NCBI GenBank assembly: GCA_023954415.1
Contig: JAMLIB010000004.1
Span: 62,001 to 126,000 of the forward strand
DNA: 64,000 bases
Direction: 5' to 3'
Source of the DNA: Trueperaceae bacterium
Lineage (GTDB): Bacteria; Deinococcota; Deinococci; Deinococcales; Trueperaceae
The notes under the pieces are model-generated. The model did no database searches, was not told the DNA's origin, and was given only the letters and a program-made list of their open reading frames with translations. Below, one piece after another: positions 26,324 to 37,185 of this stretch (position 1 is its first letter; every line of letters starts with the position of its first letter). The translations under genes were made by a program, and so were the position numbers.

Positions 26324-26413
26324 GTTCCAGCCAGCGCGGTTGTCCGCGGCTGCGTTCCGGCCCCCGCGGTTGTCCGCGGTCGCGTTCCAGCCCCCGCGGT
26401 TGCGTTCCGACCC
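26324..26413 (+). repeat. 30-bp tandem repeats upstream of the DtxR-type gene
   Basis: Units beginning GTTCC start at 26324, 26354 and 26384 (30-bp period), then a shortened 20-bp unit leads to another at 26404. Each contains CCCGCGGTTG-like sequence. The array ends just before the operator/-10 at 26421. It could be slippage-prone, or bind a protein. Confidence 0.75.
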
Positions 26414-26420
26414 GCGCTGC

Positions 26421-27474: not shown

Positions 27475-28410
27475 ATGCGTAGCCCGTCCCAACACGCTCG
27501 ACCACTCGCCCTGGCTCGCGCGGTCACCTTGAGGCTGGCACTGCTCGGCGGCTTGGTCTTCCTAGGCGCCTCGACGGCGTTCGCCCAGGAGCGGTTCAAG
27601 GTCGTCACCACCTTCACGGTCATCGCCGACATGGCGCGCAACGTCGCCGGCGACGCCGCGGTGGTCGAGTCCATAACGAAACCCGGCGCCGAGATCCACG
27701 ACTACCAGCCCACCCCCGGCGACGTGCGTCGGGCGCAGGACGCCGACCTCATCCTCTGGAACGGCCTCAACCTGGAACGTTGGTTCCAGCGCTTCTTCGA
27801 GAACCTCAAGGGCGTCCCCAGCGTCGTCGTCAGCGACGGCATCGAGCCCATCGGCATCTTCGAGGGGCCTTACGAGGGCCTCCCCAACCCGCACGCCTGG
27901 ATGTCGCCGACGAACGCCCTCCGTTACGTCGACAACATCCGCGCCGCGCTGGTCGAGCACGACCCGGCGAACGCGGCCGTGTACGAGGCGAACGCCGAGG
28001 CTTACAAGGTTCGGATCGAGGGCGTCATCGGCCCGATCAGGGAGTCGCTCGCTGCCGTACCGGAAGAGCAGCGGTGGTTGGTGACGAGCGAGGGCGCGTT
28101 CTCGTACCTGGCGCGCGACTTCGGGTTCAAGGAGCTCTACCTCTGGCCCATCAACGCCGACGCGCAAGGCACCCCGCAACAGGTCAGGAAGGTCATCGAC
28201 GTCGTGCGCGCGAACGCCATCCCAGTGGTGTTCTCCGAGAGCACCGTCTCGGACAAGCCGGCGAAGGAAGTGGCGCGGGAGACGGGCGCGCGTTACGGCG
28301 GCGTGCTCTACGTCGACTCGCTCACGGACGCCGGCGGCGCCGTGCCCACCTACCTGGACTTGCTACGCGTGACCAGCCAGACGATCGCCAACGGTTTCCT
28401 GGGGGAGTAA
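27475..28410 (+). CDS. Metal ABC transporter substrate-binding protein (Mn/Fe type)
   Basis: 311 residues with a signal peptide (cleavage near AFA-QE at about 37-38). The four metal ligands are clear: H75 (EIHDYQ), H140 (NPHAWMSP), E206 (TSEGAFSYLA) and D281 (YVDSLT). A His-His-Glu-Asp set is characteristic of Mn/Fe binding (PsaA, SitA, YfeA) rather than the His-rich zinc ZnuA type. No His-rich loop is present. It captures the metal outside the membrane and delivers it to the two permeases encoded downstream. Confidence 0.92.
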   Translation: MRSPSQHARPLALARAVTLRLALLGGLVFLGASTAFAQERFKVVTTFTVIADMARNVAGDAAVVESITKPGAEIHDYQPTPGDVRRAQDADLILWNGLNLERWFQRFFENLKGVPSVVVSDGIEPIGIFEGPYEGLPNPHAWMSPTNALRYVDNIRAALVEHDPANAAVYEANAEAYKVRIEGVIGPIRESLAAVPEEQRWLVTSEGAFSYLARDFGFKELYLWPINADAQGTPQQVRKVIDVVRANAIPVVFSESTVSDKPAKEVARETGARYGGVLYVDSLTDAGGAVPTYLDLLRVTSQTIANGFLGE

Positions 28411-28419
28411 GAGGCAGGT

Positions 28420-29283
28420 ATGACCGCAGGATCCGAGACGACAAGCGACCACGGTGCGAGCGCCGGCATCAGGGTCGAGGACGTGACCGTCACGTACCGT
28501 AACGGTCACACGGCCCTCAGCGGCGCCAGCTTCGCGATCCCGGTGGGGACCATCACGGCGCTCGTGGGGGTGAACGGCGCGGGCAAGTCCACGATGTTCA
28601 AGGCCATCATGGGCTTCGTCAGGCCGGCGCGCGGCGAGATCAGCGTCCTGGGCCGCTCCGTCGCGAAGGCGTTGCGTCAGAACCTCATCGCGTACGTTCC
28701 GCAGGCCGAGGAGGTCGACTGGAACTTCCCCGTGCTCGTCGAGGACGTCGTGATGATGGGGCGGTACGGTCACATGGGCGGCCTGCGCATACCGCGGCGC
28801 GCCGACCGGGAGGCCGTGGGCGCGGCCTTGGAGCGGGTCGGGATGAGCGAGCTCCGCAAGCGCCAGATCGGCGAGCTCTCCGGCGGCCAGCGTAAGCGCG
28901 TGTTCCTCGCCAGGGCACTCGCACAGGACAGCCGCGTGATCCTGCTCGACGAGCCGTTCAGCGGCGTGGACGTCAAGACGGAGGAGAGGATAGTCACCCT
29001 GCTCGCCGAGCTGCGGGGCGAAGGGCGCGTCATGCTCGTGTCGACCCACGACCTGGCTTCGGTGCCCACGTTCTGCGACCACGTCGTGCTCGTCAAGGGC
29101 ACCGTCCTCGCTTACGGCCCGACTGACGTGACGTTCACCAAGGAGAACCTGGACCGGGCGTTCGGAGGGGTGGTCGGACGGCGGTCGCCGGACGGCCCGT
29201 TCTTCGGGGCGCTGGCGGGCATGGAGGAGCGCTCCGGGGGGCCGGCACTCGACGGCGCGCGGCTGGGACGCACAGAGAACTGA
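28420..29283 (+). CDS. Metal ABC transporter ATP-binding protein
   Basis: 287 residues. Walker [10 protein letters not shown] (about residue 50), Q-loop [10 protein letters not shown], signature [15 protein letters not shown], Walker [13 protein letters not shown] and switch His in VSTHDL. The sequence resembles the MntB/SitB group. It starts 9 bp after the binding-protein gene and its TGA overlaps the ATG of the first permease. Confidence 0.93.
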
Positions 29284-30182
29284 TGACGACGCTGCTCGAG
29301 CCGTTCACGTACGGCTACATGCAGAACGCCATGTGGGTGTCCGCCCTAGTCGGTTGCGTGTGCGCGTTCCTCTCGTGCTACCTGATGCTCAAGGGGTGGT
29401 CGCTCATCGGCGACGCGCTCTCGCACGCCATCGTGCCGGGCGTGGCGGGGGCGTACATGTTCGGGCTGCCGTTCTCCGTCGGGGCGTTCGTCGCCGGGCT
29501 GTTGGCGGCCGGCACGATGTTCGTGCTCAACCAGCGCACGAAGTTGAAGGAGGACGTGGTCATCGGGCTCATCCTCGTCACGTTCTTCGGGCTCGGGCTC
29601 TTCATGGTGTCCGTCTCGCCCGTGCACGTGAACGTGCAGACCATCGTGCTCGGCAACGTCCTCGCGATCACCCCGACGGACACGCTCCAACTCGCCGTCA
29701 TCGGGTTCGTGTGCCTGGCCGTGCTCCTCCTCAAGTGGCGGGCCTTGGTGCTCACCTTCTTCGACGAGAACCACGCCCGCTCCGTGGGCCTGCGGCCGGG
29801 CAGGCTCAAGGTCATGTTCTTCACGGTCCTCGCCGCCGCTACCGTGGCGGCGCTCCAGACGGTCGGGGCGTTCCTCGTCATCTGCATGGTCGTGACGCCC
29901 GGCGCCACCGCCTACCTGCTCACGGACCGCTTCCCGAGGCTGCTCGCCATAGCCGTGAACATCGGGACCGTGACCAGCTTCGTCGGTGCCTACGCCAGCT
30001 ACTTCCTCGACGGCGCGACGGGCGGCATCATCGTGGTGCTCCAGACGGCGATCTTCCTCACCGCCTTCACGTTCGCGCCCAAGCACGGCGTGTTGGCGGC
30101 CAGGCGGAGGGCGCGCCTGGCCCTGCGCGGCGCGGCGCAACGGGGCTCGGACGCGCAGGCGCTGCGAGAGGCGGCCGGTTGA
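29283..30182 (+). CDS. Metal ABC transporter permease 1 (ABC-3 family)
   Basis: 299 residues with about eight or nine membrane helices and the ABC-3 permease pattern: SCYLMLKGWSLIGDALSHAIVPG, the permease-specific GDALSHA motif, GLILVTFFGLGLF, and VGAFLVICMVVTPGATAYLL near the end. It overlaps the ATPase stop (TGATG). The C-terminal tail is basic and cytoplasmic. It pairs with the second permease as a heterodimeric channel, as in SitCD. Confidence 0.92.
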   Translation: MTTLLEPFTYGYMQNAMWVSALVGCVCAFLSCYLMLKGWSLIGDALSHAIVPGVAGAYMFGLPFSVGAFVAGLLAAGTMFVLNQRTKLKEDVVIGLILVTFFGLGLFMVSVSPVHVNVQTIVLGNVLAITPTDTLQLAVIGFVCLAVLLLKWRALVLTFFDENHARSVGLRPGRLKVMFFTVLAAATVAALQTVGAFLVICMVVTPGATAYLLTDRFPRLLAIAVNIGTVTSFVGAYASYFLDGATGGIIVVLQTAIFLTAFTFAPKHGVLAARRRARLALRGAAQRGSDAQALREAAG

Positions 30183-30184
30183 GC

Positions 30185-31039
30185 ATGCTCGAGGTCCTCC
30201 TGGCGCCGTTCCGGTTCGAGTTCATGAACGAGGCCTTCCTCATCACGACGCTGGTGGCCGTGCCGGCCGCCCTCCTCTCCTGCTTCCTCGTGCTCAAGGG
30301 GTGGGCGCTGCTGGGCGACGCGGTCAGCCACGCCGTCTTCCCCGGCGTGGTGCTCGCGTACGTCCTGGGCTGGCCCCTCGCCGTCGGGGCGTTCCTGGCC
30401 GGCATGTTCACGGCGGTCGCCACGGGCTACCTCGGGGCGAACAGCCGCATCAAGCAGGACACGGTGATGGGCGTGGTGTTCGCCGGCATGTTCGGGCTCG
30501 GCGTCGTCATGTTCGTGAAGGTCAAGACGGACGTGCACCTGAACCACATCCTCTTCGGGAACATGCTCGGGGTGAGCTGGGGGGACGTTGTCCAGACCGG
30601 AGCCATAGCCTTGGTCGTGACGGGGCTAGTCGCGTTCAAGTGGCGCGACCTCCTCCTTTACGTCTTCGACCCGGCCCAAGCGCGCGCGGTCGGCCTGAGG
30701 GTGCAGGTCCTGCACTACGGGCTCCTAGCCCTCATCGCGCTCACCATCGTGGCCGCCCTGCAGGCCGTCGGCATCATCCTGGCGGTAGCCATCCTCATCG
30801 CGCCGGGCGCCATGGCCTACCTGCTCTGCCGCACGTTGCGCGGCATGCTCGTCTGCGCGGCGGCGGTCGCCGCCACCGGCGCGTTCCTCGGCGTCTACCT
30901 CTCGTTCTTCATCGACAGCGACCCGGCCGCGACGGTCGTGCTGGTCCTGGCGCTCGGCTTCGTCGTTGCGTTCGTTCGCAGCGCCGTGCGTGTCAAGCGC
31001 ATGGAGCCCGGGACCGCCGGTAGCGGAGCGCGAAGCTGA
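30185..31039 (+). CDS. Metal ABC transporter permease 2 (ABC-3 family)
   Basis: 284 residues from ATG 30185, two bases after the first permease's stop (TTG 30179 is an alternative). Same family signature (SCFLVLKGWALLGDAVSHAVFPG; GIILAVAILIAPGAMAYLL), but it is clearly a paralogue rather than a copy. Both permeases in one operon are typical of Mn/Fe importers of the SitABCD/YfeABCD type. Confidence 0.92.
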   Translation: MLEVLLAPFRFEFMNEAFLITTLVAVPAALLSCFLVLKGWALLGDAVSHAVFPGVVLAYVLGWPLAVGAFLAGMFTAVATGYLGANSRIKQDTVMGVVFAGMFGLGVVMFVKVKTDVHLNHILFGNMLGVSWGDVVQTGAIALVVTGLVAFKWRDLLLYVFDPAQARAVGLRVQVLHYGLLALIALTIVAALQAVGIILAVAILIAPGAMAYLLCRTLRGMLVCAAAVAATGAFLGVYLSFFIDSDPAATVVLVLALGFVVAFVRSAVRVKRMEPGTAGSGARS

Positions 31040-31064: not shown

Positions 31065-32120
31065 GTGGACCCAAGAGTCAACTTCATAACTTTGGCCGTC
31101 GCCGACGTGGGCGTCTCGCGCGCGTTCTACGTCGACGGTCTCGGCTGGCAACCCGCGTTCGAGGCCGCAGGCGAGGTCGTGTTCATCCGGCTCTCGCCCA
31201 CGCTCGTGCTCTCGCTCTGGAGCGCAGCTGGTTTCGAGGCCGAGGTCGGCCCGCTCGGCCCTCGCGCGGGCCATCCGCCGTTCACGCTGGCCCACAACGT
31301 GCCGGCTAGGGAGCTCGTCGACGAGGCTCTGGCAGCTGCACGAGCCGCCGGCGCCACCATCCTCGAGCCTGCCGCCCAGCGCGATTGGGGCGGTTACTCC
31401 GGCTACTTCGCCGACCCGGACGGCTTCGCGTGGGAGGTCGCCTACAACCCGGGCGCGGTGGGGGTGGCCCTCATGGACGCGGTCGCCGCCGAAGCAGAGC
31501 CGACCGCGGAGCCGACAGCGGAGCCGACCGCGGAGCCGACCACGGTCGACGTGATCCGCACCCGCCGCTCCGTCCCGCAAGCGAAGCTGACCGGCGGGCC
31601 GGCGCTCGACCATCGCGAGGTCGTCGCGGCCGTCGAGTCCGCCCGCTGGGCGCCGAACCACAAGCGCACCGAGCCGTGGCGCTTCTACCTGCTGGACGAC
31701 GAGCGGATAGCGCGGCTCGCCGGGCTCTGGGGCGAACAACTGGAGCGGACCGGTTCCAAGCCCGACCGGGTGGAGGCCAAGCGCCGCGACTGGGCCGAGG
31801 TACCCGGCGTGCTCGTCGTCACCTGCACGAGCGCGGAAGGTGCCGATGAGACCACGCGGCGGGAAGACTACGCCGCCGTGGCCTGCGCCGTGCAGAACCT
31901 CTGCTTGCACCTGTGGTCCAAGGGCATCGCCACGAAGTGGTCGACGGCCGCCGTGACGGAGCATGAGGGCTTCTGGCCGCTCCTGGGCCGCGAGCGCGCG
32001 CCGGACGGCACGCGCGTCGTGGCCCTCATCTTCTACGGCCTGGCGGAGGAGCTGCCGAAGCCCCACCGCAAGCTTCCCGTCGAGCACGTCCTCGTCGACC
32101 ACCGCCATAGGGCAGGCTGA
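31065..32120 (+). CDS. VOC domain - nitroreductase fusion protein
   Basis: 351 residues in one frame. Residues 1-130 are a VOC domain (INFxTLAVADVGVSRAFYVDG-type start, GYFADPDGFAWEVAYNPG end). A linker of four Ala-Glu-Pro-Thr repeats (about 144-159) follows. Residues 160-345 form an FMN nitroreductase (VIRTRRSVPQAKL; SARWAPNHKRTEPWRFYL; YAAVACAVQNLCLHLWSKG; VVALIFYGLA). A VOC part could bind or rearrange the substrate reduced by the second domain. The GTG start follows a leaderless -10. I know of no standard family with this architecture; both halves look intact. Confidence 0.87.
   Translation: MDPRVNFITLAVADVGVSRAFYVDGLGWQPAFEAAGEVVFIRLSPTLVLSLWSAAGFEAEVGPLGPRAGHPPFTLAHNVPARELVDEALAAARAAGATILEPAAQRDWGGYSGYFADPDGFAWEVAYNPGAVGVALMDAVAAEAEPTAEPTAEPTAEPTTVDVIRTRRSVPQAKLTGGPALDHREVVAAVESARWAPNHKRTEPWRFYLLDDERIARLAGLWGEQLERTGSKPDRVEAKRRDWAEVPGVLVVTCTSAEGADETTRREDYAAVACAVQNLCLHLWSKGIATKWSTAAVTEHEGFWPLLGRERAPDGTRVVALIFYGLAEELPKPHRKLPVEHVLVDHRHRAG
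31494..31541 (+). repeat. 12-bp tandem repeat encoding the (AEPT)4 linker
   Basis: Four copies of a 12-bp unit (GCGGAGCCGACC and variants) encode Ala-Glu-Pro-Thr repeats between the VOC and nitroreductase domains. Copy number may vary between strains. Confidence 0.9.
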
Positions 32121-32170: not shown

Positions 32171-34354
32171 TCAGCAGATGACGGCGAAGCGCAGTACCAC
32201 GTAGTCCTCGCCCACGCTCCCCTGCGCGTCCGTCACCCTTACCCGCAGCCGGATGAGCGTGTTGACTTCGCAGACGTTGCCTTCGAAGCCCGGGAGCTGG
32301 GAGACGCTCCACCTGCCCTGGTCATCCGGCACCACCGCATAGAGGGCCGTGCCGGTGCCGGTGCTCGGGTCGTAGCCGACCAGCGCGTCCCAGACCGTGC
32401 TCACGAGGTCGTCGCCCTCCGGGTCAAGGGCGTCGAAGCTTAGGGTCAACGGCTCGAACTGCGGCGCGTAGCTGTAGTCCTGCGGGCTGGTGATGGTGAC
32501 CCGCGGTGGGTAGTTGGCGGGCGCGGGGCCGATGGCCAGGCTGACTTGTGCCGTGCTGACGGCGCCGTGGCTGTCGGTGGCGGTGAGGGTGACCGTGCGG
32601 GCCCCTTGCGTGAAGCCGTCGGTCACGGTCAGGGTGCAACCCGTCCCCAGCGCGGCTCCGGCGCTCCAGGCGAGCTGGTCGCAGGGCACGGCGTACTCCT
32701 CCTCGTTGGGGTCGTAGTTGAAGGAGCGGAAGCGCACCGGCTGGCCGGCGTAGAAGGTCTGACCGTTGTAGGGCGCCGTGATGGTCAGCTCCGGGGCGGT
32801 GTTCTCCACGCCGAGCGTGACGGTCTTGGTGGTCTCCTTGCCGCCCGAGTCGACCGCCTTCACCGTGATCGTGCGGGTCCCGGTGGTGGCGAAGACGACG
32901 GGCACCTCCGGCGTCGGGCCCGTGGCCGTCCCCAGGAGCCCAGAGGCGCCGTCAGTCGGGTCGCTCGAGCGGAAGGTGGTGGAGCAGCACGCGTTCCCGT
33001 CCTCCGCGTCGCGAACCGAGGCTCGGAGGTTTATGCCGTTCGGTCCGACCTGCACGGGCCCCTGGGTCAGGATCGTCAACTCGGGCGCGGTGTTGTCCGA
33101 CTGGGCCACCTGCCACTCCAGGTCGATGAGCTTGGCCTGCCAGTCCTTGCTGAAGAGCCAGACGTCGATGGTCATGCCCGCGTTGGCCGCGAGGCCCGCG
33201 GTGAGCTTCCAGATGGGCGCGCGGGGGTAGGCGATGTCGACTCCCACGGACGGCACGATCTCCGCATAGGTCCCGACCATGCCGTAGAGCAGCAGCTCGC
33301 CGCGGATGGCGCCCTTGAGCTTGGCCTTGGCCACCACTTGGACGAACGACGGGGACTTCACGGGCTGCGCCACTTCCTCGTGGCTGGCGTCGCTGATGTT
33401 CGACCACTTGCCGTTCTTGTACTGGCCGCCGGCCTTCAGCGTCAGGGTCTCCTGCACCTCGTAGCTGACGCTGAAGCCGATGGAGCCGTCGATCCGCAGC
33501 TCAAGCTTGAGCTTGGGGACTATGACGACCGGGACCGGCCCGATGGAGAAAGTGATGGCTTTGCCCGTGATGGTCGCGAGCGGGATGGCCTTGCTGAGCG
33601 TGAGCCCCACCGGCGTCTTGCTGTCGAGCGCCAGGCGCGCGATCACCTGAGCGCCCACCTCGAACTTGAAGTAGGGGTTGGTCTCGAGGCACAAGTAGCT
33701 GCAGTTCAACGCGAAGGCCAGGTCGAAGATGGGCTGCGCGCCAACGTCGCCCTTGACCAGGACCTGGTCGCTCTTGGTGCTCAGGTTCCCGTCCGCGTCG
33801 TAGACGACCAGGTCGTCGAAGCTCCAGCCGATGAAGCCGGACGGCAGGGAGAGGGGCGAGAGGCCGTCCGCTGCCGCTGCCGCCAGCCGCTGGCGCTCGG
33901 CCGGCTCGGCGGGGTCGAACAGGCGCAGGCCGTCGACGTGGTACTCCACCGTGGCGACGTCGTCCGGCGTCATCGCGAAGCTCTCGTAGAGCGAGCCGGA
34001 CTCCAGCGCCATGTCGAGCGACGCGAGCTCGGTCTGCAAGGTGAGCTCCCCCGCCACGGAGTCGTCGACGCCGGTGACGCGTCTCAGGATGCCGTTCGGG
34101 GCCGCGGCGGTCGGTTCGGAGACGACGACGTTACCCACCGCCAACGCCGGTAAGTCTGCGCCGGAGAAGACCAGCACTCCGCTGTCCTGGTCGTAGGCCT
34201 GTAGGGCGTCACGAGCGGCCGCGTCGAGGACCCTGGTGTCCGCGTTGGGCACGGCCGGGTAGTGCGGCTCGTCGTCGGGCGGCGTGGGGGCGCCGCAAGC
34301 GACGAGCAGCGTGAGCACCGCGACCGCGAGCCTGCCGAGGGGGCGTTTCTTCAT
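32171..34354 (-). CDS. Large surface lipoprotein with Ig/PKD-like repeats
   Basis: 727 residues. A lipobox (LTLLVAC, Cys near residue 20) ends the signal peptide. An N-terminal part resembling an exported adhesin-like domain (about 40-400) is followed by three cadherin/PKD-like modules, each opening with an APELTI or PPRVTI strand and containing Asp-rich turns (RDAEDGN, DPNEEE, DPEGDD). Several Cys pairs are present (CCSTTF; CSYLC). It probably sits on the cell surface. Its ATG overlaps the stop of the upstream lipoprotein gene. Confidence 0.78.
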   Translation of the reverse strand: MKKRPLGRLAVAVLTLLVACGAPTPPDDEPHYPAVPNADTRVLDAAARDALQAYDQDSGVLVFSGADLPALAVGNVVVSEPTAAAPNGILRRVTGVDDSVAGELTLQTELASLDMALESGSLYESFAMTPDDVATVEYHVDGLRLFDPAEPAERQRLAAAAADGLSPLSLPSGFIGWSFDDLVVYDADGNLSTKSDQVLVKGDVGAQPIFDLAFALNCSYLCLETNPYFKFEVGAQVIARLALDSKTPVGLTLSKAIPLATITGKAITFSIGPVPVVIVPKLKLELRIDGSIGFSVSYEVQETLTLKAGGQYKNGKWSNISDASHEEVAQPVKSPSFVQVVAKAKLKGAIRGELLLYGMVGTYAEIVPSVGVDIAYPRAPIWKLTAGLAANAGMTIDVWLFSKDWQAKLIDLEWQVAQSDNTAPELTILTQGPVQVGPNGINLRASVRDAEDGNACCSTTFRSSDPTDGASGLLGTATGPTPEVPVVFATTGTRTITVKAVDSGGKETTKTVTLGVENTAPELTITAPYNGQTFYAGQPVRFRSFNYDPNEEEYAVPCDQLAWSAGAALGTGCTLTVTDGFTQGARTVTLTATDSHGAVSTAQVSLAIGPAPANYPPRVTITSPQDYSYAPQFEPLTLSFDALDPEGDDLVSTVWDALVGYDPSTGTGTALYAVVPDDQGRWSVSQLPGFEGNVCEVNTLIRLRVRVTDAQGSVGEDYVVLRFAVIC

Positions 34355-36069
34355 GCCTGCGCTCCTTGCTTACCTGACTGGAGGGACGTGCCTATCCCGG
34401 GTTCGCCGCACTGGAACGAACCCGAGTAGGGTTGCGGGGTGGACAGGATGAGGCGCCCGGCGCTGCCCTGCTCGTAGACCCTGTCGAGCCGCCAGACGTA
34501 GGTCGTACCCGTGCAGTTGTAGTTGCTGGGCGGGTAGTAGGTGATCGTCAGACCGTCGCCGCTCAGCTGCACCCTGGCCTGGGTGATGGTGTCGAACAGC
34601 GCTCCGCTGCCGGTGCGGACCTCGCCCGCGATGTTGTCCACCTGCACGGGCTCGCTGAACGTCCAGGTGATCGGTTGGCTCGGGTCGTTCGTCCGGGGCG
34701 GGAGGCCGAGCCGCGACGGCGCGGGGGTGAAGCTGACCAGCCGCGGCTTGAAGTTCAGGGTGTCGAAGTCGCCGTTCCAGGGGGCCGTGAGGCCGTTGCC
34801 CATGAGGTCGCGCGCTTCCACCGTGAACTGCACGGCGTAGCTCTGCAGTTGGCGCAGACCGGCGACCGTGCAGCTCGCCTGGGCCGGTGTCGGCCACGCC
34901 CAGGCGCAACTCATGGCGGGGGCGCTGACGAAGGCCGCCTCGGCGGCGGTCTGGTCCATCGGCTCGCTGAAGTCGAAGGTGAGGACGCCGCGGCCCGTGT
35001 CCACGTCGACGTCCTGGGTGAAGCCGAGCACCTCGGGCGGGATCACGTCGGGCACGAAGCCGGCCATGAAGGAGACGGTCGTGGGGGTCGGCAGCGCGTT
35101 GCCGGCCAGGTCCTCGGCCACGAGTTGGAAGCGGTAGGCCTTGTCGCTCTCTATGAGGTCGGGGGCCACGTCGTCGAACTCGACCAGCGTTCCGCTGGGG
35201 CTCCAGGACGGGGCACCGAGCAACGTCGTGTCCAGCGTTGCCTCGACGGGCGCTCCCGGGTCGAGAGGGTCGCCCTCGGCGGGCGCCTGCACCTGGTAGA
35301 GGAAGACTTCAAGCGAGCCTGGGTCGATGGGTTCGGAGAACGCGAAGCGCACACGCGTCACCAGTCCGACGCCCCGCAGTCCGTCGGACGGTTGGCTGGA
35401 GACCAGCGTCGGCGGCGTGGTGTCACCCGGGGTGGCGGTCAACGTCGCCGAGGGTGTCGAGCGGTTGCCGGTACCGTCCTCCGCCACCAGGTAGACCGCG
35501 TACGTGGTGCCGTTCTCGAGCGGCGTCAGTACGTGCTCGGTCGGCGCCGTCGGCAGGGCCGCGACGCCCGTCGGCGCGTCGGGGTCCTCCCCCCAGAAGA
35601 GGAGGTAGCCCGCGAGGTCCGGTTCGGTGTTGGCCGTCCACGTGAGCCGGATGGCGCCGTCCATGGCCTCGGCCGCCAGTCCGGTGGGCGCCGCCGGCGG
35701 CTCTTGGTCGTCGAGCGTGGTGAAGCTCAGGTCCAGGCTGCGGGTGTTGCCGGCGTCGTCCTCCGCGACGATGGCGAAGCCGAGCGCCGTGCCCGCCGGC
35801 CAGGCGGGCGCCGGGGCGATGGTCACCACCCGACGCGCCTCGTCCCACACTGGGGCGGCCAGCCCCACGAGCGGCGAGGGGGTCACCTGCAGCTTCTTCA
35901 CTGGCTTGCTGAAGGTGAGGACGACGGCCTCGTTCAGAGCGACGTCCGTGGCGCCGTCGGCGGGCGAGGCGGAGAGCAGCGTCGGCGGCGTGGCATCGCC
36001 GCCCTGCGGGCCGCAGGCGGTGAGCCAGGCGAGGGCTGCCAGGCTGATGAGGACGGTTCGGATACGCAA
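34351..36069 (-). CDS. Lipoprotein with Big_5 and fibronectin III-like domains
   Basis: 572 residues from TTG 36069, chosen because GAGGAAGAG precedes it and the signal sequence begins there (RIRTVLISLAALAWLTAC, lipobox Cys). Repeated Ig-like modules start with PPTLLSASPADGATDVALNE and PPTLVSSQPSDGLRGVGLVT (Big_5 type), separated by a fibronectin III domain (PTGLAAEAMDGAIRLTWTAN). It looks like a multi-domain surface protein. The stop overlaps the next lipoprotein's start, so the two are co-translated and probably act together. Confidence 0.8.
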   Translation of the reverse strand: MRIRTVLISLAALAWLTACGPQGGDATPPTLLSASPADGATDVALNEAVVLTFSKPVKKLQVTPSPLVGLAAPVWDEARRVVTIAPAPAWPAGTALGFAIVAEDDAGNTRSLDLSFTTLDDQEPPAAPTGLAAEAMDGAIRLTWTANTEPDLAGYLLFWGEDPDAPTGVAALPTAPTEHVLTPLENGTTYAVYLVAEDGTGNRSTPSATLTATPGDTTPPTLVSSQPSDGLRGVGLVTRVRFAFSEPIDPGSLEVFLYQVQAPAEGDPLDPGAPVEATLDTTLLGAPSWSPSGTLVEFDDVAPDLIESDKAYRFQLVAEDLAGNALPTPTTVSFMAGFVPDVIPPEVLGFTQDVDVDTGRGVLTFDFSEPMDQTAAEAAFVSAPAMSCAWAWPTPAQASCTVAGLRQLQSYAVQFTVEARDLMGNGLTAPWNGDFDTLNFKPRLVSFTPAPSRLGLPPRTNDPSQPITWTFSEPVQVDNIAGEVRTGSGALFDTITQARVQLSGDGLTITYYPPSNYNCTGTTYVWRLDRVYEQGSAGRLILSTPQPYSGSFQCGEPGIGTSLQSGKQGAQA

Positions 36070-36213
36070 GGTCTCTTCCTCACTCGACGCGCTTACTGGG
36101 GGCGCCGGCCTCGAGCTTCTTCCCGGAGCACATCCTGCCCGCCTGGTGCCACAAGGGCGCCACAAGGCGCGGGGCCGGGGCGTGCCGGATCGCGGCCGCT
36201 CACGAGCGTCTGG

Positions 36214-36225: not shown

Positions 36226-37185
36226 GTGATACCCGCCAACCCCACCCCGGAGGCGCTCCTGGAGGTCAGGGACCTGAGGAGGAGCTTCGGCGCCTTGCAG
36301 GCCGTGCGCGGCGTGTCGTTCACCGTGGCAAGGGGCGAGACCTACGGCCTGCTCGGTCCGAACGGGGCAGGCAAGACGACCACGATCTCGATGGTCGCCG
36401 GCATCTTGAGGCGAGACGGCGGCGCCGTCGTGCTGGACGGCGAGCCGGTCGCGGCGACGAGCGTCGCCGCCCGCCGGTCCATCGGCCTCGTGCCACAGGA
36501 CCTGGCCATCTACCCGGACCTGAACGCGCGCGAGAACCTCGCCTTCTTCGGCAGGCTGTACGGGCTCGGGGGGAAGGAGCTCGCGCGGCGGTGCGACGCC
36601 GTGCTCGACACGGTCGGACTGCTAGACCGCGCCGGTCAACTCGTTCGCGAGTACTCAGGGGGCATGAAGCGCAGGCTCAACATCGCCGCCGGGCTCCTCC
36701 ACGAGCCCAAGCTGCTGATCCTGGACGAGCCGACCGTCGGCGTCGACCCGCAGTCGCGCAACGCCATCCTCGAGACGATCGAGCTGCTCGCGGACGGTGG
36801 CCTCGCCGTGCTCTACACGACCCACTACATGGAGGAGGCGGAGCGCCTCTGCGACCGGATCGGCATCGTGGACGACGGCCGCCTGGTGGCCGAGGGCACG
36901 CGCGCCGAGCTCGTGCGGCTCGTGGGCGGCGAGGACGACGTACGCGTGAGCGCGACGGGGAACCTCGCCGCTGCCGCCGAGCGCGTGCGGGGCGTCGAGG
37001 GGGTCTCGCGCGCGGACGTGGCGGACGAGGGCCTGCGGCTGGCGGCGAAGGGCGCGAGCGGCCTCCTCACGCAGCTGGTCCACGCGCTGGACGCCCCCGG
37101 CGTCAACGTCACCGGCATCGAGGTGAGGGAGCCGGACCTCGAGGCCGTGTTCCTCAGCCTCACGGGCAAGGCCCTGCGGGATTGA
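36226..37185 (+). CDS. ABC-2 type transporter ATP-binding protein
   Basis: 319 residues from GTG 36226. Walker A GPNGAGKTTT, signature YSGGMKRRLNIA, Walker B LLILDEPTVGVDPQSR, switch His in YTTHYMEEAERL. The DrrA/CcmA-like C-terminal extension (about 225-319) is typical of drug or polymer exporters. The two genes that follow supply two different membrane subunits. The long frame runs far upstream without a start, so GTG 36226 is set by the leaderless -10. Confidence 0.9.
   Translation: MIPANPTPEALLEVRDLRRSFGALQAVRGVSFTVARGETYGLLGPNGAGKTTTISMVAGILRRDGGAVVLDGEPVAATSVAARRSIGLVPQDLAIYPDLNARENLAFFGRLYGLGGKELARRCDAVLDTVGLLDRAGQLVREYSGGMKRRLNIAAGLLHEPKLLILDEPTVGVDPQSRNAILETIELLADGGLAVLYTTHYMEEAERLCDRIGIVDDGRLVAEGTRAELVRLVGGEDDVRVSATGNLAAAAERVRGVEGVSRADVADEGLRLAAKGASGLLTQLVHALDAPGVNVTGIEVREPDLEAVFLSLTGKALRD

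Follow-up and report, generated by a model that had tools for sequence, protein, structure and literature searches.

Whether two protein domains that share one reading frame also share one substrate is a question raised by a gene in the 64,000-nucleotide stretch of DNA analyzed here (the window), which comes from a genome (G000) of an uncultured genus of Trueperaceae (Deinococcota). A single open frame on the forward strand (31065-32120) begins with GTG and encodes 351 amino acids in the order VOC, (AEPT)4 and nitroreductase. The VOC half, of the glyoxalase/bleomycin resistance fold, spans residues 1-129 (31065..31451, GTG start included). It matches the Pfam family Glyoxalase PF00903 over residues 4-125 (E = 4.6e-12; 46.8 bits, cut-off 20.6), which places it in the VOC superfamily, and VOC folds are among its structural matches. 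The nitroreductase half covers residues 161-351 (31545..32120, stop codon included) and belongs to PF00881 by its match over residues 164-295 (E = 1.1e-14; 55.4 bits, cut-off 23.5). Between them lies a linker (residues 130-161, 31452..31547), which includes the VOC domain's own C-terminal tail with Met137 (ATG at 31473) and the AEPT array (residues 144-159, 31494..31541), an array of 12-bp units that reads AEPTAEPTAEPTAEPT. The first-pass annotation had described a VOC domain joined to a nitroreductase in one frame, and with both domains above their Pfam cut-offs and no stop in the frame this description holds. Its four perfect AEPT repeats are perfect as peptide; the 12-bp DNA units differ at two third-codon positions.

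Two neighboring genes can appear as one through an assembly or read error, and the records of two fused genomes (L026 and L027) are indeed metagenome assemblies. However, a spanning and stop-free match was found in four of the six genomes of the genus included in the search, namely G000 itself and G003, G005 and G004, whose proteins are 97%, 83% and 70% identical to that of the window. A frameshift separating the two genes, which had been raised at the outset as a possible refutation, was thus not borne out, the frame being unbroken in three further genomes. The GTG start lies at the identical place in these three and in G001, where the VOC domain stands alone. Furthermore, pairwise dN/dS among the four fused genes (Nei-Gojobori) ranges from 0.15 to 0.34 in the VOC half and from 0.13 to 0.23 in the nitroreductase half, values that are rough for pairs with G004, in which synonymous distances of 0.76-0.88 are near saturation. 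Such ratios indicate purifying selection on both halves, and so a constraint at the codon level on either side of the join. Given unbroken frames in four genomes and this constraint, an artefact is refuted for practical purposes, and we leave it virtually no chance.

The fusion is confined to the genus as far as it was searched. No spanning match was found in the other 55 relatives (61 genomes searched, own included), and in the phylum-wide search it was found in four of 111 Deinococcota, all four in the genus, and in none of the 105 genomes outside it. Among the matches listed, none was spanning in 396 genomes of the actinobacterial phylum to which a Tessaracoccus locus belongs (215 with some match, up to five candidates scored per genome) or in 235 genomes of the myxobacterial phylum to which a Polyangiaceae locus belongs (126 with some match, up to nine candidates scored). 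Among plasmids, 111 records gave a match, and in none of them does a single stretch account for 80% of the query. In a genome collection, two of 79 loci are fused (L026 and L027, both Deinococcota), the 79 having been kept from the best 80 of 178 by search patterns that lay in the VOC half only. As judged by titles and the beginnings of abstracts, none of the papers listed by literature searches for such a protein describes a VOC-nitroreductase fusion. The earlier statement that no standard family has this domain order therefore agrees with everything searched, in which the order was found only in this genus. It is apparently a new arrangement of two very common known families, within searches that covered Deinococcota, one actinobacterial and one myxobacterial phylum, plasmids and one collection, and that would miss fusions of other VOC or nitroreductase subfamilies.

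The linker had been called variable, with a possible role in tuning domain distance, and the comparison among genomes bears the variability out: the number of AEPT units is four in G000, two in G003, one in G005 and zero in G004. Placed on the species tree, these counts rise toward the window's own lineage. With counts of this kind, the repeat is a young expansion and not a conserved device. The array has a TRF score of 84-92. When the codon order of the gene was shuffled, none of 1000 shuffles reached a score of 84 (maximum 68, against 92 for the gene), thus the array is not a product of chance within this gene. In third-order Markov simulations of the 64-kb window, 2 of 40 reached 84, so the repeat is only moderately unusual within the whole 64 kb. 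The structure model has pLDDT below 50 over residues 148-183, and the copy number is most simply read as the result of replication slippage in a disordered tether that tolerates changes in length.

The tail NPGxxGVxLM is common to the fused protein and to single-domain VOCs of Tessaracoccus. All four fused proteins have Met137, as might be expected if the nitroreductase were also made separately from an internal start at this codon, with the cell holding a fused and a single form. However, the same methionine is present in the tail of the single-domain Tessaracoccus VOCs, which have no nitroreductase, so its conservation needs no such reason. The internal start is thereby weakened as an explanation, and we regard it as very unlikely.

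The species tree estimated from rpoB and gyrB is (G002,((G001,G004),(G005,(G000,G003)))), in which the pairing of G001 with G004 has support of 91/94, below the starred level. G002, the outermost member of the genus, has the nitroreductase without the VOC (L006), as does G017 of another genus (L005). G001 carries the VOC alone, as a protein of 146 amino acids with its own stop, and this single-contig genome has no nitroreductase match at E = 0.001. The G001 VOC gene lies directly before an ABC ATPase gene whose product shares 69% identity with the one encoded at window 36256-37182, and this shared neighbor makes the VOC locus probably orthologous. The G001 interval is without the nitroreductase half and without the two genes of window 32171-36165. 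The most economical history is a fusion in the ancestor of the five genomes (G000, G003, G005, G004 and G001), followed by loss of the nitroreductase in G001; the loss depends on the pairing of G001 with G004, and if the pairing is wrong, G001 could predate the fusion. The fusion has persisted at least since G004 diverged from the three remaining fused genomes.

The two halves appear to differ in their origin. In the VOC tree, the fused VOCs and that of G001 group together (SH-aLRT 96) inside a group of 11 rows (94) that also includes Tessaracoccus and Mobilicoccus/Agilicoccus; four other Trueperaceae VOCs lie elsewhere in the tree. This grouping suggests transfer from Actinomycetota, in a tree of 140 columns and 86 rows with many unresolved forks and an outgroup of our choice, the rows of which are the best hits of VOC-only patterns. 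Close VOCs are also present in genomes of the myxobacterial phylum, which counts against an actinobacterial origin. Judging from the sequences, the VOC half was probably acquired, and the actinobacterial single-domain VOCs group with it. Among the best 80 of 178 loci, these VOCs (from Tessaracoccus, Nocardioides and others) are 50-65% identical to the VOC half over residues 1-130 or more and have T9, H77, N78, W108 and E124 in common with it; unlike the fused protein, they end after the VOC domain. In the nitroreductase tree, the fused halves group with the single-domain copies of Trueperaceae (98/96). This tree conflicts with the species tree by placing G004 outside the branch that holds G002 and G017, and its long branches were flagged.

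The single-domain nitroreductases of Trueperaceae (L005 and L006) are 56-57% identical to the nitroreductase half and have no VOC in front. Its nearest solved relatives by sequence are 2i7h of Bacillus cereus (E = 3.4e-12) and YdjA of E. coli (4e-7); structural comparison also puts both among the closest matches (Z = 13.2 and 12.9), on a model that is of moderate confidence here because only three rows cover this half. Neither of them has a VOC domain in front, unlike the fused protein. We rejected naming the half as YdjA, BluB or FbiB, as all scores are under the NCBI cut-offs: 37.3 vs. 183 bits for the YdjA model NF008088, 23 vs. 150 bits for BluB (TIGR02476) and 28.9 vs. 249.55 bits for the C-terminal domain of FbiB (TIGR03553). 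A comparison with up to 32 single-domain nitroreductase relatives gave 23 positions that at least 85% of them conserve; 20 of these are kept in all four fused proteins, position 268 is kept in three of the four, and positions 290 and 320 differ in all four. By its family, the half is expected to bind FMN and to perform NAD(P)H-dependent reduction.

Among solved structures, the sequence of the VOC half comes closest to 3bqx (E = 6e-20), a "glyoxalase-related enzyme" of Fulvimarina pelagi that ends after the VOC domain. We asked whether the half keeps the metal ligands of FosA, which we take to be His, His and Glu. The residue aligned with the FosA glutamate, E124, is the same in all 86 rows. 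H7 of FosA aligns with F7, a position that is F in 76 of the 86 rows and H in none, and the second FosA histidine aligns with no histidine, at a position adjoining an alignment gap. Two of the three ligand positions are therefore not kept, and the FosA-type three-ligand site is not present as such. A histidine close by, H77, is present in 85 of the 86 rows, and the VOC half may conceivably hold an unusual metal site. The models of FosA-type fosfomycin resistance transferases give scores below their cut-offs (NF000496, 16.9 vs. 180 bits; best of the group, 21.2 vs. 275). With two ligand positions lost and the mitomycin-binding protein MRD as the best match by structure, glyoxalase chemistry is unsupported, and the VOC half is probably metal-free.

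These observations bear on the first-pass proposal that the two domains carry out a two-step transformation of one substrate, read here as a metal-dependent, glyoxalase-type VOC reaction and a flavin reduction in succession. Both domains are in one chain, the glutamate at the FosA place is invariant, and the structural matches include metal-bound VOC enzymes such as 3b59, although at a lower Z (11.7). Against these points stand the phenylalanine in place of the first histidine, the lack of a histidine at the second position and the separability of the halves in evolution. A further point comes from the fused VOC of G004. Of 81 outside rows, at least 93% agree at each of 45 sites; the G004 protein departs at eight of these (R4K, V38I, L51F, H77Y, D86N, Y111H, D117C and D119N), compared with zero, zero, one and one in the other members of the genus; the four distant Trueperaceae VOCs depart at 6-11 sites, and every other row at three or fewer. 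The occurrence of single halves in close relatives and the departures in G004 make an obligatory two-step coupling unlikely. Glyoxalase-type metal chemistry is weakened by the two missing ligand positions, and the two-step proposal finds no support in the comparison; we consider it highly improbable. As a separate matter, the site changes in G004 (L004:1498-1900) may represent a loss or change of VOC function inside the fusion.

A different form of coupling is suggested by structural comparisons, in which the VOC half matches the mitomycin C resistance protein MRD best (1kmz; Z = 15.1, rmsd 2.5, 123 aligned residues, 20% identity) and the phenazine-binding protein EhpR (3sk2) stands at rank 50 of the Foldseek list. 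Nitroreductases reduce quinone-, phenazine- or nitroaromatic-type compounds. A metal-free VOC could capture a planar redox-active molecule of this kind (quinone, phenazine or nitroaromatic) and present it to the FMN half, which would amount to detoxification within one protein. The VOC half contains conserved aromatic residues, including W52, W108, Y114 and W123. According to the EhpR report (PMC3175449), the flat aromatic ligands of EhpR and MRD are held in place by stacking interactions, and the residues for FosA activity are not conserved in EhpR. MRD and EhpR have the VOC fold in common with the half studied here, which likewise does not keep two of the three FosA positions. Nevertheless, MRD is only 20% identical to it, MRD and EhpR are single-domain proteins, unlike the fused one, and a shared fold does not show a shared ligand, so that the ligand stays putative. 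Each half is also found without the other in relatives, and in G004 the fused VOC has changed at several conserved positions. Gene neighborhood offers no link either: a VOC match lies within 1.5 kb of none of 30 single-domain nitroreductases, and no nitroreductase match was found around the other 77 VOC loci, with up to about 3 kb examined on each side. We accordingly rejected a functional link by neighborhood, and hold capture and reduction within one protein as a tentative possibility. In its extended version, the binding module would be metal-free and MRD- or EhpR-like, and a slippage-prone AEPT linker would allow the distance from binding site to reducing site to differ among lineages; this version seems unlikely.

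The explanation that we favor, at about even chances, is a young, genus-restricted fusion of two separately working domains by passive joining. A single-domain VOC gene of actinobacterial type would have entered the Trueperaceae genus, and by loss of its stop would have become joined to a small nitroreductase gene already in the lineage. The halves would fold separately, tethered by the disordered linker, which may since have grown by slippage of the 12-bp unit. The C-terminal half would be an FMN reductase that uses NAD(P)H to reduce aromatics of the nitro or quinone type, and the N-terminal half probably a metal-free VOC that binds a small molecule, so that the fusion would mainly keep two proteins together, each with its own function. 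Against passive joining, both halves are constrained on average in the fused genes, and with its persistence through several speciations this constraint suggests that the join may be useful. The fusion gives the impression of two common proteins joined in an ordinary way. It is a recent domain fusion caught together with its parts: VOC alone and fusions with zero, one, two and four repeats in one genus, and the nitroreductase alone in a member of the same genus and in one of another. Should both halves bind one ligand, the fusion would point to a partner and a possible activity for a VOC family that is uncharacterised; should they not, the case warns against deducing pathway steps from fused genes.

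Upstream of the fused gene, ZnuA-type importer genes lie outside the fusion on the same strand (27475..31039, forward), encoding ZnuA (PF01297), an ATPase (PF00005) and two ABC-3 permeases (PF00950 twice), and the operon ends 25 bp before the fusion. A frame like that of the last permease is also upstream of the fusion in G003 and G005, whereas G004 and G001 have a different upstream gene on the opposite strand. Co-transcription, if any, would thus be local to one branch, and a link to metal uptake was not adopted given the other neighbors in G004 and G001. About 1 kb upstream of the importer genes is the strongest tandem array of the window (26324-26416; 30-bp unit, 2.6 copies, score 123). 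Downstream, two Ig-domain genes on the reverse strand (window 32171-36165; Big_5, fn3 and a weak Big_7 match) converge on the fusion.

VOCs close to the fused one also occur with other C-terminal partners, which differ from a nitroreductase. Mobilicoccus VOCs, from the same 11-row subgroup as the fused VOCs, have a DUF4440-like C-terminal domain (L050:3001-3801, L060:3001-3810 and L103:3001-3861), which passes the Pfam cut-off in L050 only. In a Janibacter MAG, a similar VOC and a GNAT acetyltransferase are in one frame (L035:3001-4122). Finally, Nocardioides sp. zg-1230 has two VOC genes with an identical product on two scaffolds (L032 and L034), which is either a duplication or a repeated assembly.
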